Assembly (NCBI GenBank): GCA_017651265.1 | Contig: JAGCDO010000056.1 | Span: 18,834-82,833 of the forward strand | DNA length: 64,000 nt | Direction of reading: 5' to 3' | Origin: Prevotella sp. | Lineage (GTDB): Bacteria; Bacteroidota; Bacteroidia; Bacteroidales; Bacteroidaceae | Part shown: positions 41,104 through 63,119 of the stretch, piece after piece | Position numbering within the stretch: the stretch's first letter is position 1 | Layout: every line of letters begins with the position of its first letter | Notes under the pieces: generated by a model | What the model was told of the DNA's origin: nothing | Database searches by the model: none | What the model saw: the letters and a program-made list of their open reading frames with translations, nothing else | Made by a program: the position numbers and the translations under genes

Positions 41104-42560
41104 GGTGCTTGTTTTTTTGTTTTCGACAGGATGAACTGCATACAGTCTTTCAGGATCTGAGCTCCGGCAATCCTCATGATGAGGTAGTAGATGATGACAG
41201 CCAGGATAACCCTGACAATCAGCAGGAGGATAAGGTTATGTATTCCGCGGGTGATGAAGGCGGTTAGCAGCATGGTTCCCAAGGCGCATAGGGCAAAGGG
41301 AGCAATATCTTTGAGTAAGGAGAGCAGACGGTAGCCGGTGAGCTGTTGTACGAAGTGGTGCCATACAAACAGCCAGCAGGTATTCAGGATGACATACCCA
41401 ATGACCATCGTGCGCACCCCATAGGGATAGAGCACGAGCATGAGGATGAGCTGACAGATTCCTAATGCCAGTGTGTTCCACATATAGGTATCCGACTTCC
41501 CCTTACTGATAATCATATTATATAATAAGGTGTTGATGGGCATGAAGGCACCGGCAATGCAAAGCAGTTGCAAGTAGGAGGCGCTGGTGCTCCATTTCTC
41601 GCCGATGGCGGTGACGATGAACTCGTGCGACACCATGCCAAAGCCAAACAGCAGGGGGAAGGAGAGGAAGGCGGTGAAACGGATGAGCTTGCGCATAGCC
41701 CTGAGTTGTCGTTCTCCATCGCTCTTCAAATCAATAAATACCGGTTGTGCCACAGTCTGCACCATACCTTGCAAGAGGTTGAAGCACTTGTAGTCCCATT
41801 GGTAAGCCTGGTTGTAGTTTCCTGCATCTTTGGGAGTAAAGAACCGTCCGAGCAGGATATTGAGGATTTGGTTGTTCACCTGTGTGAAGATGGCCGAGAA
41901 CATGATCTTACAGCTGAAGGGGAACATACGCTTGATGGGCTCCGGATCAAAGTGCCATCTCGGTCGCCAGTCGGAATAATGCCAGTACATCAGGGTGCAG
42001 ATGAGCACATAGACGATGCTCTGAGTGGCCAATGACCAATAAGAGAAACCTTTCCAGGCCATCACAGCACCGATGATGTTCGAAATGATGATAGCGATCA
42101 TACCGCTCTTTGCCTGTTGTTTGGTGCGCAGGTTCTTAAAGAGGTAGGCCGACTGTGCCAATCCGAAGCTGGAGAACACAAAGCTCAGGAAGACATAACG
42201 GCAAAGCGGGGTGAGTTCCGGCTGGTCGTAGAAATGTGCGATGAGCGGGGCACAAAAGAATAGGATGACATAGATGCAGAGGCTCACCACGATATTGAAC
42301 CAGAATACCGAGTTATAGTCATTGTCGGTAGGATGCTCCATGTTGGCTAAGGCGACCTTGAAACCGCTGCTCTGCAGCTCGACAGCAATGACGGTAAAGA
42401 TGGTGATCATGGCCATCATACCAAAATCATCAGCCGACAATAGACGTGCGAGAATAATGCCGAACACCAGTCCGATGAGCTGTTGCACGCCATTGTTCAT
42501 ACCGCCCCAGAACAGTCCTTTGGCAGTTTTCTCTTTCAGTGATTCAGTATCGTTAGTCAT
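41100..42560 (-). CDS. Polysaccharide flippase, Wzx/MATE-like
   Basis: The 486-residue protein has 12-14 hydrophobic helices of the polysaccharide biosynthesis (PST/MOP) family. It starts KTAKGLFWGGMNNGVQQLIG and continues with GIILARLLSADDFGMMAMIT, the typical first two helices. It would flip a lipid-linked oligosaccharide to the periplasm. It overlaps licD by 8 nt and the glycosyltransferase by 4 nt. Confidence 0.9.
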   Translation of the reverse strand: MTNDTESLKEKTAKGLFWGGMNNGVQQLIGLVFGIILARLLSADDFGMMAMITIFTVIAVELQSSGFKVALANMEHPTDNDYNSVFWFNIVVSLCIYVILFFCAPLIAHFYDQPELTPLCRYVFLSFVFSSFGLAQSAYLFKNLRTKQQAKSGMIAIIISNIIGAVMAWKGFSYWSLATQSIVYVLICTLMYWHYSDWRPRWHFDPEPIKRMFPFSCKIMFSAIFTQVNNQILNILLGRFFTPKDAGNYNQAYQWDYKCFNLLQGMVQTVAQPVFIDLKSDGERQLRAMRKLIRFTAFLSFPLLFGFGMVSHEFIVTAIGEKWSTSASYLQLLCIAGAFMPINTLLYNMIISKGKSDTYMWNTLALGICQLILMLVLYPYGVRTMVIGYVILNTCWLFVWHHFVQQLTGYRLLSLLKDIAPFALCALGTMLLTAFITRGIHNLILLLIVRVILAVIIYYLIMRIAGAQILKDCMQFILSKTKKQAP

Positions 42561-43365
42561 AGATCTCTATATGATTGACATGCGGATGGATCGAATCAAG
42601 ATCAGGCAACTGCGTATAGTCGCCATAGATGCAGCGCAGATGGTGATCATAATCATGTGGCACAGGGAACTGATACCCTTCAAACACATGCTCGGCCAGC
42701 GGGAAGATGTCTTCGGCAAAGCGTGGATTGTGGTAAGGAATGCCCATGCCGCTTGTGAGGAGGGTGGAGGATGAAGTACGGAGGAACTTGCGAAGGAAGG
42801 GGAAGACATAGCGGTTGTTGAAGTTGAAGATGCGTCTTACCCGCTTGATGGCCTTAGCATCATCCTTACTCTTTCGCCATACCTTGTACATGTGTCCAAC
42901 AGAAAGCTCTGTGAATTTGTGCAGCCAGATGGGATGCTCTTCCATGGGGAAGATGTCGATGTATATACCCTGCTCTTTCCACATCCGGTCGTAGTTGTTC
43001 CCCTCGTTCAGCAGCGAACGACGGTCGCGCACCTTGGCATAGAAGAAGAAATAGTTCGGATCTGTCTCGTCCGTCTGCAGGGCAAGCCAGTCGGGCAGTT
43101 CCTTAGTCAGCACCTCCAGTAACCGGAGGTAGTCGTTTCTCATCATCTCAATGTCGAGGTCATCATCCCAGGGAATGAAGCCGTTATGACGTACAGCCCC
43201 AATCAGCGTACCGCTGCTGAGCCAATAGGGTATCTGATGCTTTCGGCAGATCTTATCGATCACCACCAGAATCTCCAGCATGCGAAGCTGATGCTTCCGC
43301 AGCTGGGAACCGTCGGGGTTGAAGCGTTGGCGCAGTGCCTGATGGTCAATCGTTGTTGTCTGCAT
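42553..43365 (-). CDS. LicD family phosphotransferase
   Basis: The 270-residue enzyme is of the LicD/fukutin nucleotidyltransferase-fold family, which transfers phosphocholine or similar groups from CDP-linked donors to glycans. The key block WLSSGTLIGAVRHNGFIPWD with DDLD is present near residues 43-66 and supplies the metal-binding Asp residues. Placed two genes after a CTP:phosphocholine cytidylyltransferase-like fusion, it should use the product of that enzyme. It overlaps the dehydrogenase gene by 20 nt. Confidence 0.9.
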   Translation of the reverse strand: MQTTTIDHQALRQRFNPDGSQLRKHQLRMLEILVVIDKICRKHQIPYWLSSGTLIGAVRHNGFIPWDDDLDIEMMRNDYLRLLEVLTKELPDWLALQTDETDPNYFFFYAKVRDRRSLLNEGNNYDRMWKEQGIYIDIFPMEEHPIWLHKFTELSVGHMYKVWRKSKDDAKAIKRVRRIFNFNNRYVFPFLRKFLRTSSSTLLTSGMGIPYHNPRFAEDIFPLAEHVFEGYQFPVPHDYDHHLRCIYGDYTQLPDLDSIHPHVNHIEIYD

Positions 43366-47451: not shown

Positions 47452-47633
47452 CTTTGAACTTTGAGGTTTGAACTTTATGATTACCTCATAAGAAATAGTT
47501 CATGAAAGAATAATCGTTTAGCATCTAAACCAATTGGACTCTGATATGAGTTTGCGAACAGAACAAATCATAAAGTTCTTTGCAGAGCAAAGCGGCAGAG
47601 CCGAGCGCAATGTTAAAAGCTCAAAGTTCAAAG
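47452..47633. repeat. Hairpin repeat element between rpsI and rpsB (family D plus AACTTTGA repeats)
   Basis: CTTTGAACTTTGAG (47452-47465) and CTCAAAGTTCAAAG (47620-47633) are 14-bp perfect inverse complements. Inside them GAACTTTATGATT (47470-47482) pairs with AATCATAAAGTTC (47566-47578). Then come hairpins CTTTGC-AGA-GCAAAG (47578-47592) and CGGC-AGA-GCCG (47593-47603). AAGCGGCAGAGCCGAGCG (47590-47607) recurs inverted and exact at 58437-58454 within a glycosyltransferase gene. Confidence 0.8.
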
Positions 47634-49919: not shown

Positions 49920-50357
49920 ATGATGTTAGAGTTAGTATTTCTCCTCGCAGCACTCGCGTGCATGGTATTGGTTGCTTCATCAACCTTCGTTAATGACAAG
50001 ATGATCTATGCCGACCAACTTCCAATAATGGCCAAGGCATTCGTGGATCAGAACTTCCCCGGGCACAGCATCGCCTATGCCACGATCGACAGGTCGTTTG
50101 CAGACGACATGTATGAGGTGTGCCTGAACAACGGCGTGGAGCTGGGGTTTGACGACCAGGGCAACTGGGATAAGGTTGACTGCAACACAAATGCCGTTCC
50201 GAGTCAGCTCATCCCCGAAAGTGTTGACAACTACGTGAAATCCAACTATGCCGATGTTGTCATCAACAGAATTTACAAGAAATTCTATGGTTACAAGGTG
50301 GAGCTGTCAAATCATCTCAACCTGAAACTCAACAACGAAGGGGAATTGACCAACTAG
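49920..50357 (+). CDS. PepSY-like (DUF2874) exported protein
   Basis: The 145-residue protein has an N-terminal hydrophobic segment (about 3-22; LELVFLLAALACMVLVASS), probably a signal peptide. Two PepSY-like repeats follow: QLPIMAKAFVDQNFPGHSIA...GNWDKVDC and SQLIPESVDNYVKSNYADVV...NNEGELTN. Such proteins are periplasmic and of unknown function. It has its own promoter and a strong terminator, so it is monocistronic. Confidence 0.82.
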   Translation: MMLELVFLLAALACMVLVASSTFVNDKMIYADQLPIMAKAFVDQNFPGHSIAYATIDRSFADDMYEVCLNNGVELGFDDQGNWDKVDCNTNAVPSQLIPESVDNYVKSNYADVVINRIYKKFYGYKVELSNHLNLKLNNEGELTN

Positions 50358-55982: not shown

Positions 55983-56465
55983 ATGAAGGTGAGAGTTGGA
56001 ATGGGCTTTGATGTTCACCGTTTGGTGGAAGGTCGTGATTTGTGGTTAGGAGGTATCAAGATAGAGCATTCGTTAGGATTGTTGGGACACAGTGATGCAG
56101 ACGTGCTGATTCATGCTATCTGCGATGCGCTGTTGGGCGCTGCCAATATGCGCGATATAGGCTACCACTTCCCAGACACTTCTGATGAAACGCTGGACAT
56201 GGACAGTAAGGTGATTCTCCGAAAGACCATGGAGCTGATCAAGAGCAAAGGCTATGCGTTCGGGAATCTCGATGCTACCGTATGTGCCGAACGACCGAAG
56301 ATCAATCCTCATGTGCCGGCCATGAAAAAGTGCCTGGCCGAGATCATCGGTACGGATGAGGATAACATCTCCATCAAGGCTACCACCACCGAAAAGTTGG
56401 GCTTTACCGGTCGTGAAGAAGGTATGAGTGCCTATGCCACCGTACTGATTACCAAAGAGGACTAA
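55983..56465 (+). CDS. ispF: 2-C-methyl-D-erythritol 2,4-cyclodiphosphate synthase
   Basis: The 160-residue enzyme of the non-mevalonate isoprenoid pathway has GMGFDVHRLVEGRDLWLGG (zinc-binding D and H), LLGHSDADVLIHAICDALLG, and TTTEKLGFTGREEGM. It catalyses the step two after IspD, whose gene at the right end of the window is interrupted. The start at 55983 gives the usual N-terminus. Confidence 0.97.
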   Translation: MKVRVGMGFDVHRLVEGRDLWLGGIKIEHSLGLLGHSDADVLIHAICDALLGAANMRDIGYHFPDTSDETLDMDSKVILRKTMELIKSKGYAFGNLDATVCAERPKINPHVPAMKKCLAEIIGTDEDNISIKATTTEKLGFTGREEGMSAYATVLITKED

Positions 56466-58124: not shown

Positions 58125-58916
58125 ATGAAGATATCCATTATCACCGTTACCTATAACGCCGCCAGCGTCCTGTCACGCACCCTCGACAGCGTGAAAAGTC
58201 AGTCGTGGCAACAGATAGAGCACCTTATTATCGATGGGGCCTCGAAGGATGAAACCGTTAGTATGGCTGAGACCTACAAGGCACAGTGCCCGTACGAGGT
58301 GGTGATCCTATCCGAGCCAGACAAAGGTCTCTATGATGCCATGAATAAAGGTCTGCGGTTGGCAACAGGCGACTACCTGGTGTTCCTGAATGCGGGAGAC
58401 ACACTACACGCCGCCGACACCCTCGAAACAATTTTCCGCTCGGCTCTGCCGCTTCGCTACGCGAAGAATTGTCAATTGTCAATTGTCAATTGTCAAAGAC
58501 CTGGAGTGCTCTACGGCGATACGGCCATTACCGATGAACAAGGACAATTCCTTCACCTGCGCCGACTGCGTCCTCCCAAGAAGCTCTCGTGGAAGTCGTT
58601 CCGTCAGGGAATGCTCGTCTGTCATCAGGCTTTCTATGCCTTGACCGATATTGCAAAGGAAATCCCCTACGACCCGCGTTACCGTTATTCAGCCGATGTT
58701 GACTGGTGTATCAGGGTGATGAAGGAGGCGCAGCAACGACAGCTTCCGCTGGTAAATACACATGCTATCGTGGCCGACTATCAGGAGGAAGGGCAGACCA
58801 CCATTCATCACCGCGATTCGCTGAAGGAACGGTTCGACGTGATGCGCCGCCACTACGGACTGTTCTCCACGGTTTGCATGCACATCTGGTTTGTCTTCAG
58901 ACAACTCATCAAATGA
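58125..58916 (+). CDS. Glycosyltransferase family 2
   Basis: The 263-residue GT-A enzyme has KISIITVTYNAASVLSRTLD, the LIIDGASKDET strand, and the SEPDKGLYDAMNKGLRLATG block with DxD-type residues. About 21 residues near 105-125 (SALPLRYAKNCQLSIVNCQ) are encoded by repeat family D followed by four AATTGTC units, in frame, between the usual donor domain and GVLYGDTAITD. The insertion lies in a loop, so activity may be kept. Probably co-transcribed with the upstream GT4. Confidence 0.9.
   Translation: MKISIITVTYNAASVLSRTLDSVKSQSWQQIEHLIIDGASKDETVSMAETYKAQCPYEVVILSEPDKGLYDAMNKGLRLATGDYLVFLNAGDTLHAADTLETIFRSALPLRYAKNCQLSIVNCQRPGVLYGDTAITDEQGQFLHLRRLRPPKKLSWKSFRQGMLVCHQAFYALTDIAKEIPYDPRYRYSADVDWCIRVMKEAQQRQLPLVNTHAIVADYQEEGQTTIHHRDSLKERFDVMRRHYGLFSTVCMHIWFVFRQLIK
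58437..58494 (+). repeat. Repeat family D plus four AATTGTC units inside the GT2 gene
   Basis: CGCTCGGCTCTGCCGCTT (58437-58454) is the exact inverse complement of 47590-47607. A hairpin CTTCGC-TAC-GCGAAG (58452-58466) follows, then AATTGTC x4 (58467-58494). Confidence 0.85.
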
Positions 58917-60175: not shown

Positions 60176-62275
60176 TTATGAGATGGCCGACCAGTTTACG
60201 TTCGTTTTCCGCAATTCGGCCAGTCGGTTCCAAAGCATTTCATTTTCTGTTTTCTTGCAGTCGGGATCATCATCAATAATCTTCTGCGCCTCATCACGTG
60301 CCAATTGCACCAGCTGACCGTCGCGAGCAATATCGGCAATCTTCAGGTCAAACGCCATACCGCTCTGCTGCGTTCCTTCCAAGTCACCCGGTCCTCTCAG
60401 TTTCAGGTCGGCCTCGGCAATCTGGAACCCATCGTTCGTGTCGCACATGATATCGATGCGTTTGGCAGTCTCCTTACTGAGTTGGTGGGTGGTTACGAGG
60501 ATGCAATACGACTGGTCGGCCCCTCTTCCCACCCTGCCGCGCAGCTGGTGCAGCTGTGACAAGCCGAAACGCTGGGCGTCTAGGATCACCATCACCGAAG
60601 CATTGGGCACATTCACACCCACCTCAATCACCGTGGTGGCCACAAGGATCTGCGTCTCACCACGCACAAAGCGCTGCATCTCCTCTTCCTTGTCGGCAGG
60701 TTTCATCTGACCGTGCACCTTACTGAGTTTGAATTCGGGGAACACCTGCAGCAGTGTCTCGAACCCCTCCTCGAGGTTCTTCAGGTCGATGCGTTCACTC
60801 TCCTTGATCAGCGGGAACACGATATACACCTGTCGGCCCTGGTTGATCTGCTGGCGGATGCCCTGATACAGACTGGTTGTCTGGTTATCGTATTTATGTA
60901 GTGTTACCACCGGCTTCCTGCCAGGCGGCAGCTCATCAATCACACTCACGTCGAGGTCGCCATAGATGGTCATGGCTAAGGTACGGGGAATAGGCGTGGC
61001 CGTCATCACCAATACATGCGGCGGGTTCACACTCTTGCTCCACAGCTTGGCCCGTTGCGCCACACCGAAGCGGTGCTGCTCATCCACCACCACGAAACCC
61101 AAGTGAAGGAACTGCACCGTATCCTCTATCACCGCATGCGTACCCACGAGAATCTGCACGCTGCCGTCGGCAATACCCTGCAGAATCTCCTTTCGTTTCT
61201 TTCCCTTGACAATACCCGTGAGCAGTTCCACCCGTACAGGCATATCACCCAAGAACTCACGGATGGTGGCCAGGTGTTGCTCGGCCAGAATCTCCGTAGG
61301 TGCCATGATGCAAGCCTGGTAGTTGTTGTCAAGGGCAATCAGCATCGACATCAGCGCCACCAATGTCTTCCCCGATCCCACATCCCCTTGCAGCAGTCGG
61401 TTCATCTGTCGCCCGCTTCCCATATCCGTGCGAATCTCTCGTATCACCCTTTTCTGTGCATTAGTCAGTGGGAAGGGCAGGTGTCGCTGGTAGAACTCGT
61501 TGAAGATGCTGCCCACATGCTCGAACACATATCCGTGGTATTTCCTTCTATGGTCGCTGGCGTAGCGCACAATATTCAGCTGCACGTAGAACAGTTCCTC
61601 GAATTTCAGTCGTACGCGCGCATGCCTCAGCTCTTCGGCAGTCTTGGGATAGTGGATATGTCGGAAGGCCGTATCGCGCGAAACCAGTCGCAGACGGTTG
61701 GCAATAAACGGCGGCAATGTCTCAGGCAGCGGGTCGGTAAGCTTTTCCAGCATACTCTTCATGATCTTCTCGATGGTCCGTGAGGTGATACCCGCCTTCT
61801 TCATGCGCTCCGTGGTAGAGTAGTAAGGCTGCATACCCATCTCTGTGAGCTGCACCTCGCTCATCTTCTCCACCTCGGGATGAGCAAACTGGTAGCGCCC
61901 GTTATAGATGGTGGGTTTGCCGAACACGATATATTCGGTGTTCACCTGATAGTTCTTCGTAATCTGCTTGGCGTGCATGAACCACACCAAGTCAACAATC
62001 CCCGTCCCATCGGTCATGTGTGCCACAATACGTTTCTTCCGCGGGCCCATATCAAACTCCTCGAAGCTCAGAATCTCCCCTTTCACCTGTACGAAAGGCA
62101 TCTCGCTGGTGAGCTCATTGATATGGAACACCCTACTGCGGTCCACATATTTATAAGGATAATACTCCAACAGGTCACCAAATGTCTTGATGCCCAGTTC
62201 CTTGCTCAGGATCTCCTTTCTTTTCGGACCGACTCCTGGCACATACTGAATGTCTTGTTGGAGGATGGTGTACAT
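60176..62275 (-). CDS. recG: ATP-dependent DNA helicase RecG
   Basis: The 699-residue helicase remodels stalled replication forks and Holliday junctions. The N-terminal wedge/OB domain (about 1-260) includes QYVPGVGPKRKEIL and VQVKGEILSFEEFDMG. The helicase core has Walker A GDVGSGKT, the DEQH box in VVDEQHRFGV, TATPIPRTLAMT and the C-terminal QLRGRVGRG motif. The length is typical. Its start lies 3 nt after the ispD stop, so they are co-transcribed. Confidence 0.97.
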   Translation of the reverse strand: MYTILQQDIQYVPGVGPKRKEILSKELGIKTFGDLLEYYPYKYVDRSRVFHINELTSEMPFVQVKGEILSFEEFDMGPRKKRIVAHMTDGTGIVDLVWFMHAKQITKNYQVNTEYIVFGKPTIYNGRYQFAHPEVEKMSEVQLTEMGMQPYYSTTERMKKAGITSRTIEKIMKSMLEKLTDPLPETLPPFIANRLRLVSRDTAFRHIHYPKTAEELRHARVRLKFEELFYVQLNIVRYASDHRRKYHGYVFEHVGSIFNEFYQRHLPFPLTNAQKRVIREIRTDMGSGRQMNRLLQGDVGSGKTLVALMSMLIALDNNYQACIMAPTEILAEQHLATIREFLGDMPVRVELLTGIVKGKKRKEILQGIADGSVQILVGTHAVIEDTVQFLHLGFVVVDEQHRFGVAQRAKLWSKSVNPPHVLVMTATPIPRTLAMTIYGDLDVSVIDELPPGRKPVVTLHKYDNQTTSLYQGIRQQINQGRQVYIVFPLIKESERIDLKNLEEGFETLLQVFPEFKLSKVHGQMKPADKEEEMQRFVRGETQILVATTVIEVGVNVPNASVMVILDAQRFGLSQLHQLRGRVGRGADQSYCILVTTHQLSKETAKRIDIMCDTNDGFQIAEADLKLRGPGDLEGTQQSGMAFDLKIADIARDGQLVQLARDEAQKIIDDDPDCKKTENEMLWNRLAELRKTNVNWSAIS

Positions 62276-62278
62276 TTT

Positions 62279-62593
62279 TTAGGAGGAAGGAGGAAGGACG
62301 AAGGAGGAAGGACGAGAGGAAAGGGGGGAAATTGCGAGGGAGGAAAGAATGGCTTCAGCGACGACACAATCGAACGGTGTGGTAATCTTGATGTTCTCAC
62401 GGTTCCCCTCCACCAGCGTCACTGCACACCCCATGCTCTCCACCACCGAAGCATCGTCGGTGAAGCTGTCACGGTAGTCCTGCGCATACGCTTTCTTGTG
62501 CAGTTGGATATCAAACACTTGCGGCGTCTGCACCAAACGATACTCATCACGCGGCACAGTAGAACTTTGAACTTTTGGAGCAGCGAGGGCCAT
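62279..62593 (-). pseudogene. ispD: ispD, 3' fragment (C-terminal part with Lys of the active site)
   Basis: It carries [30 protein letters not shown] and the NIKITTPFD segment with the catalytic Lys region of IspD. The frame is shifted by +1 relative to the 5' fragment, because 112 bp of repeat family A and flanks lie between. The ATG at 62593 comes from the inserted repeat, so a separate C-terminal polypeptide could be made. The last residues ([12 protein letters not shown]) are encoded by repeat family C and extend the normal C-terminus. Confidence 0.85.
62283..62312 (-). repeat. Repeat family C block at the 3' end of ispD
   Basis: A 30-bp purine-rich block is identical to 29393-29422, where it stands between fructokinase and serpin. 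Confidence 0.85.
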
Positions 62594-62687
62594 CGTGCTT
62601 GCACGTTTGGCCGAGTCGTGACAAAAGTCATGGAACGAAGTGACATAACTATGAACTGTGAACTTTGAACTTTTAACTTTGAACTTT
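62563..62687 (-). repeat. Repeat family A copy 3 interrupting ispD, flanked by 13-bp direct repeats
   Basis: AACTTTGAACTTT occurs at 62563-62575 and 62675-62687, a period of 112 bp. Between them are the family A core (62577-62623, inner stem CGTGC/GCACG), the shared tail and further AACTTTGA-type units. On the coding (minus) strand the upstream repeat reads AAA GTT CAA AGT and is followed at once by TAA; the downstream repeat reads the same and continues TCT ACT in the ispD C-terminal frame. Confidence 0.85.
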
Positions 62688-63119
62688 GGTTCCCAAATGT
62701 CGGATGGTTTCTACCACCGGAATAACGGGAATGGCGGTCCCCACCTTTCGGGCTGTTTCGTAACAGTTGCGTATCACCTCTACCGACGGGAACGGTCGTA
62801 CCCCATCGTGCACACCCACCAGTCCTTGTGCATCATCAGGAATCAGCTTCAAGCCGTTCTTGATGGAATGGAAGCGCGTCTCGCCGCCATCAGCAATGGA
62901 ATAGTCTTCCACGAACTGGTATTCATCGCACAACGCCTGCCAGTATTCCTGTTGCTGCTTGGGTAGCACAAGGATAATGTTCAGCTCCTTGCTATACTCA
63001 CGGAACCGCTTCACGGTGTGCATCAGCACGGGCATACCTCCAATGGGCAGGAACTGCTTGGGGATATCAGTCCCCATACGTAGTCCCTTCCCTCCAGCCA
63101 GAATGATGATATAGTCCAT
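62673..63119 (-). pseudogene. ispD: ispD, 5' fragment (2-C-methyl-D-erythritol 4-phosphate cytidylyltransferase)
   Basis: The 148 codons carry the N-terminal CTP-binding part: ILAGGKGLRMGTDIPKQFLP (Gly loop, Arg and Lys), ADGGETRFHSIKNGL and VGVHDGVRPFPS. They end GTKVQS followed by TAA created by the inserted repeat. Normal IspD continues for about 80 residues, and both parts are needed for the known active site. The enzyme makes CDP-methylerythritol in the isoprenoid pathway, which also includes ispF in this window. Without the 112-bp period the two parts would form one 242-residue frame. Confidence 0.9.

Follow-up and report, generated by a model that had tools for sequence, protein, structure and literature searches.

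The window analysed here is a 64,000-nucleotide stretch of Prevotella sp. DNA from a genome of 3.16 Mb in 69 contigs (93.9% complete). The ORF list and the sequence showed that ispD, the gene for an enzyme of isoprenoid synthesis (2-C-methyl-D-erythritol 4-phosphate cytidylyltransferase), consists of two minus-strand ORFs, broken at a 133-bp stretch. A DJ-1/PfpI gene, assigned by Pfam, adjoins ispD on its upstream side, and recG lies directly downstream. The features of the locus, in window coordinates, are as follows.

62673..63119, minus strand: ispD N half, 148 aa; PF01128 95.3 bits (profile 3-136), NF001186 205.6 bits
62676..62710, minus strand: 35-nt overlap of the N-half and C-half (+1) open frames, from the stop positions 62675 and 62713
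62647..62688, minus strand: heptamer tract upstream of the core, with six CAAAGTT-related units of 7 bp; unlike the sequence in the relatives G110, G195 and G332
62577..62646, minus strand: 70-bp core of the family A repeat element with a hairpin within it; defined by blastn copies, a covarying stem and presence or absence relative to G110
62561..62576, minus strand: short downstream heptamer tract, AAAGTTC; longer in G110 by 21 bp (three units), in frame
62279..62593, minus strand: ispD C half, 104 aa if begun at the element's ATG at 62593; PF01128 72 bits (profile 142-220), NF001186 108.6 bits
62279..62345, minus strand: IspD C-terminal tail, largely CCTTCCT-type heptamers, by comparison with G110 and G195
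60176..62275, minus strand: recG, directly downstream of ispD, with Pfam RecG domains
55989..56450, plus strand (approximate window coordinates; G000:C55:74822-75283): ispF, intact; PF02542 228.6 bits

The 133 bases separate HL (residue 142) from TVPRDEYR and comprise a few linker bases, the upstream tract, the core and the short downstream tract. The frame of the C half is also that of the element, and the linker has no stop in it; the N half alone is offset, by a net +1. Comparison with sister species placed the origin of this offset in or beside the upstream heptamer tract. Both halves were individually above the PF01128 cut-off (95.3 and 72 bits), and neither reached the NCBIfam equivalog cut-off (205.6 and 108.6 vs 253 bits). 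These results confirmed an earlier note on this DNA, which had described IspD as split in two halves at a family A repeat, with regard to both ORFs, their coordinates and their PF01128 homology; its statement that ispF is intact also held (228.6 bits).

The direct repeat AACTTTGAACTTT was found at 62563 and 62675, spaced 112 bp apart, with AGT followed by TAA at the upstream copy (62675-62673) and an in-frame ATG at 62593, all as previously described. Subtracting 112 bp does join the halves into a 242-residue frame (133 - 112 = 21), and in this respect the claim of an "exact frame-restoring period" is arithmetically correct; however, the 112-bp spacing is one of several registers, and the property was chosen afterwards. 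Since the copy at 62661, at 98-bp spacing, matches over 14 bp rather than 13 and yet gives no joined frame, restoration of the frame amounts to a one-in-three property. The C-terminal tails of IspD, just before recG, also differ between the study genome, G110 (L155) and G195 (L156), carrying CCTTCCT or CACACTC heptamer tracts; at the position of 62279-62345, G110 has other heptamers instead and the tail of G195 is shorter.

The element in sister species

We searched 398 same-genus genomes at the DNA level, at least 339 of which gave a match. Among the matches listed, the same element occupied the same place of ispD in G110 and G195. The linker in G110 is 177 bp long, open and in frame, giving a single chain of 299 aa, and that in G195 is 105 bp, likewise open and in frame, with a single chain of 258 aa. 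Both insert-bearing proteins passed the NCBIfam cut-off (311 bits for G195 and 316 bits for G110, vs 253), and the methionine corresponding to the ATG at 62593 is internal to the chain in both. In a third relative, G332 (88% complete), an AATGTTC heptamer repeat of 60 bp lies in frame at the ispD site. G110 and G195 (each 99% complete) each have one PF01128 gene above the cut-off, and no second one was found in G110, G195 or G332.

These comparisons bear on the proposal of a recent inactivating insertion. Because G110 and G195 share the element, it is not recent in ispD, and that part of the proposal failed; the frame offset, on the other hand, is private to the study genome. No exact empty site of the ispD copy, a check suggested by the earlier note, was found in relatives: the sequence upstream of the element is not conserved between the study genome and the sisters, and G332 carries another repeat.

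Ribosome bypassing of the T4 gene 60 type, or +1 frameshifting, could in principle join the two halves. The locus resembles gene 60 in its matched AGT/AGT codons, the TAA after the first and the hairpin between them, and the two frames overlap by 35 nt, but the codon arrangement is expected from the direct repeat itself. According to passages in PMC11194080, gene 60 sliding is processive over 50-56 nt with a steep loss beyond 56, whereas the gap here is 112 nt, about twice the T4 gap of about 50 nt. The hairpin, which had been called stable, proved to be of ordinary stability (70 nt, -17.5 kcal/mol, z -0.99), as 25 of 200 shuffled sequences folded at least as well. The locus also differs from gene 60 in its unconserved upstream sequence, and the sister genes, in which the element forms one open frame with both halves, need no bypass. 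On gap length, hairpin z-score and the open frame in the sisters, bypassing was rejected, and we consider that either form of recoding is very unlikely here.

Census of the ispD linker

We measured ispD linkers from the same genus. The loci came mostly from the top of the search lists, with 80 further loci, and were chosen by similarity to the study ispD rather than drawn from the whole genus. Of 214 loci, 209 were measurable (the exceptions were L032, L066, L069, L071 and L128), and these formed 159 k-mer clusters. The results showed that the linker is divisible by three, and has no in-frame stop, in 158 of the 159 clusters; the study genome is the exception in both respects. An open frame of 210-300 aa was present in 157 clusters, the others being the study gene and one gene truncated at a contig end. 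Linker length was 9-24 bp in 111 clusters and 30-144 bp in the remaining 48 (the 177-bp linker of G110 falls in the G195 cluster), and 47 of these 48 long linkers, of any kind, are in frame. Among the 21 linkers of at least 60 bp other than that of the study genome, stops in the reading frame were found in 0 of 21, whereas each of the five other frames contained stops in 6-18 of 21. Outside the genus, the linker measured 18-24 bp in nine of ten loci and 48 bp in one, with four further loci unmeasurable.

We then mapped the long and short states onto an ispD tree built without the linker by a quick method, with SH-aLRT support only. At least 27 changes of state were needed, and well-supported branches forced 12 of these. 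With the labels shuffled, 41 changes were needed, so long linkers are clustered on the tree and their state is also partly inherited.

By sequence rules, 20 of the 48 long linkers are recognisable repeats, comprising ten GGAC/GTCC palindromes, six heptamer tracts, two family A elements and two CTCGAG-type repeats. Three further linkers share VQRSI-like and three QTLCE-like peptides, and 22 belong to no family by the motif rules. The multicopy status of the inserts was checked with two queries, the family A element and the palindrome. The palindrome gave 33 matches in G323, 16 in G173, 10 in G018 and one each in G258 and G273, and none in G216, G110 or the study genome, so that five of the eight genomes gave one or none. 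Our preferred reading is that the ispD loop is probably a site at which translated repeat DNA, comparable to the palindromic elements of Rickettsia, has landed repeatedly. Repeat-like in-frame inserts were also seen in other loops of IspD, in G022 (L065) and G008 (L067).

Repeat elements elsewhere in the genome

By blastn, the element with its tracts matched 55 places in the study genome; the hairpin part was included in 27 of these, and the others covered mainly tract. G110 gave 43 matches, 25 of which included the hairpin part. The element is thus multicopy and dispersed in both genomes. An alignment covered 21 of the study genome's 24 core-bearing loci (three were omitted); in it, five of the 15 predicted stem pairs showed double compensatory changes, mostly in the upper stem, in keeping with a palindromic structure; the RNAalifold covariation term was small, at -0.6 of -10.0 kcal/mol. 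The 70-bp core is present at L035 of the study genome and absent from the orthologous heptamer tract in G110 (L292), which indicates that copies are gained or lost between close relatives. Heptamer-type tracts also differ in length between the two genomes, by 28 bp and 7 bp intergenically and by 21 bp inside ispD.

Several other differences from G110 were recorded. A second small palindrome of about 28-30 bp, ending in GCAAAGCGGCAGAGCCGAGCG, lies beside heptamer tracts at 47580-47607, where its presence differs between the study genome and G110, and it also occurs within the ispD linker of G110 (L155). The glycosyltransferase family 2 gene at 58125-58916 (plus strand) contains an in-frame 45-bp stretch with four AATTGTC heptamers that G110 is without, and for the LicD-family gene at 42553-43365 (minus strand) G110 has a net 45 bp extra, in frame, that is missing here. 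About 11.4 kb of the study genome (2187-13607) is missing from G110 between otherwise contiguous flanks.

Structure of the insertion site

An AlphaFold2 model of the G195 IspD was built from 45 sequences (mean pLDDT 88.7). In this model the insert residues, about 144-174, have a pLDDT of about 50-70 and lie between the strands 139-143 and 175-179. Among solved structures, B. subtilis IspD (5hs2) is closest in fold (TM 0.87 by target). From the model and the alignment to solved IspD chains, we place the insertion point at the tip of a hairpin that is probably the IspD beta-arm. The beta-arm is a small subdomain that joins the two monomers and holds the MEP site, according to passages in PMC11770629. 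We infer from the model that the insert may form a disordered extension that would leave the IspD fold intact.

Constraint on the two halves and source of IspD activity

We compared the two halves of the study gene with those of the sister species. Between the study genome and G110, dN/dS was 0.058 for the C half and 0.099 for the N half; across the 72 codons compared, the C half is identical in protein to both G110 and G195, and the N half gave 0.10 and 0.13, respectively. The study genome's own branch carries 4 synonymous and 0 non-synonymous changes in the C half. In the N half there are 6 synonymous changes and 1 non-synonymous one, besides a further 2 and 3 left unpolarised; these counts are too small to date the frame change. 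The conserved residues of IspD are retained in both halves, as compared with G110 and G195. Judged from these substitutions, the C half, past the break, appears at least as constrained as the N half. These data, together with the indels described below, fit a frame change that happened very recently, an assembly fault confined to the tract, or halves that both still function.

Several bacteria cannot survive without their MEP enzymes, according to passages in PMC11770629, and something must therefore supply IspD activity here. The mevalonate pathway was rejected as the isoprenoid source, as no match to its HMG-CoA reductase was found in the study genome, and ispF and ispG are present. The suggestion of rescue by a second ispD gained no support in this genome (93.9% complete), in which no other PF01128 match was above the cut-off. 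A third match, at G000:C36, was set aside, since it scored 25.8 bits, below the cut-off, and covered only profile 3-55 in a 210-aa ORF.

If ispD is dead here, its replacement could be an ispD encoded in the 6% of the genome that is missing, or some other enzyme. Such a replacement would accord with the 93.9% completeness and with the second full-length IspD-family match, of about 133-139 bits, found in seven of 23 same-genus relatives (G001, G002, G003, G010, G012, G015 and G016); these second matches are perhaps polyol-phosphate cytidylyltransferases. Yet G110, G195 and G332 have no second gene above the cut-off and the C half shows no decay, and we regard replacement as quite improbable.

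The frame offset: a possible sequence error or frameshift

The offset may be an artefact of sequencing or assembly, confined to the heptamer tract; the living strain would then have an in-frame insert like those of its sisters. The offset arises at a repeat tract, the element and its tracts are multicopy (55 matches), and the study gene is the sole out-of-frame case among the 159 clusters. That repeats lead to misassembly in Bacteroidia is documented (PMC5771137), although the passages concerned deal with repeats at least as long as the reads, and the 133-bp linker is within the usual reach of short reads, with tract units that differ from each other. We also aligned about 50 kb of the window (13608-64000) to G110, setting aside one divergent ORF (49920-50357). 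The indels well inside ORFs of at least 100 aa were all multiples of three, except in ispD and the divergent ORF, and five others, lying no more than about 31 bases from a gene end (15630, 17240, 23906, 28336 and 35784), were not. The internal indels indicate that the sequence is not error-rich in general, so that the error, if it is one, stands alone in the aligned region. On this evidence an error at the tract is a real possibility, though short of an even chance.

A genuine recent frameshift, tolerated for a time or reversed by a change in tract length in the manner of contingency-like switching, is also conceivable. The units are 7 bp long, and tract lengths are not those of G110, either intergenically (differences of 28 bp and 7 bp) or within ispD (21 bp). 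Against this stand the lethality of MEP enzyme loss in several bacteria (PMC11770629, in part) together with the missing HMG-CoA reductase, the lack of an obvious use in switching off ispD, and the few perfect units. The upstream tract contains few perfect 7-bp repeats, and simple slippage is thus no compelling cause, while an assembler had less reason to err; heptamer slippage as a proven cause was dropped on this ground. A genuine frameshift is possible but doubtful, and an unstable tract that flips the frame is quite improbable.

A possible two-chain enzyme

In another reading the enzyme works as two chains: the N half would end at the TAA at 62675, translation would restart at the element's ATG at 62593, and the halves would assemble at the beta-arm tip. 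This break falls within a loop that accommodates as much as 144 bp among the census clusters, and 177 bp in the case of G110; the C half is constrained on the study genome's branch, an in-frame ATG exists, and a second ispD was not found. However, none of the 158 other clusters has a split ispD, and the T and G of the ATG are paired in the predicted hairpin stem; these two observations count against two chains. Furthermore, no Shine-Dalgarno-like motif was seen by eye, 79 nt separate the stop from the start, and the same methionine is internal in G110 and G195. A two-chain IspD is unlikely on balance, and it is equally unlikely that a mobile repeat element, by carrying a stop and a fresh start codon into the beta-arm loop, turned an essential single-chain enzyme into a natural split enzyme at a recurrent landing loop.

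Proposed explanation

We propose that the beta-arm hairpin tip between ...ETIRHL and TVPRDEYR... is a permissive loop, at which Prevotella-type genomes would repeatedly have gained short inserts, many of them recognisable repeats (7-bp tandem tracts and small palindromes). The insert would be translated in frame as a disordered extension, with the enzyme still working. Both read-through and activity are suggested by the frame, the constraint and the sole ispD found in G110, G195 and G332. In the study genome, the length of the upstream 7-bp tract would leave the frame of the N half shifted by one base relative to that of the element and C half. As each unit has 7 bp, the frame would shift whenever units are gained or lost in a number other than a multiple of three, and this is the presumed cause. 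We hold it likely that the loop is permissive and carries translated repeat inserts, with a net +1 frame change in the study copy that is either recent or an artefact of assembly. For that copy itself, we moderately favour an insert that is normally read through, in which the frame changed recently or the sequence was wrongly assembled at this one place.

The enzyme is essential and a drug target, and in this common gut genus a single position of it carries inserts of several repeat types; among the 159 clusters, the state changed no fewer than 12 times on well-supported branches. These inserts make testable a rule on which loops accept translated repeat DNA and on how the reading frame filters insertions, and the study copy is a rare out-of-frame case that shows this filter.

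Comparison with known repeat systems

REP elements of the GTAG/CGTC families that lie inside ORFs code for 20-82 residues, according to passages in PMC3733652, a paper in which Prevotella is not mentioned. REP families are tied to RAYT tyrosine transposases. The ispD element is alike in being a palindromic repeat within an ORF. It differs in that the study genome (93.9% complete) gave 0 matches to the Y1 transposase (PF01797, Y1_Tnp), the ground on which RAYT-driven mobility of the element was rejected. The tracts, for their part, recall by description the STRR heptanucleotide repeats of cyanobacteria, 7-bp tandem units scattered in the genome; here, coding genes too contain such units.

The best-known cases of 'selfish' repeats lying in frame within conserved genes come from Rickettsia. 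Rickettsia palindromic elements (RPEs) are short, multicopy palindromic DNA; besides lying between genes, they occur as in-frame fusions within conserved protein genes, where they contribute additional residues, according to passages in PMC2229807. In the open-access full-text literature, outside which most subscription journals lie, we found no earlier report of repeat inserts recurring at the IspD loop; as far as that literature tells, what is new is the phylum, the co-occurrence of palindromes with heptamer tracts, and the recurrent use of a single loop. The ispD element is likened to, rather than assigned to, the RPE and REP families, and by analogy it may function like both. Like RPEs, it is a multicopy palindromic repeat that lies in frame within a conserved gene in G110 and G195 (out of frame in the study copy), a likeness of description rather than of compared sequences. 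Rickettsia belongs to a different phylum, and in the case described here several repeat types, some of them 7-bp tandem tracts, share one loop of one enzyme.
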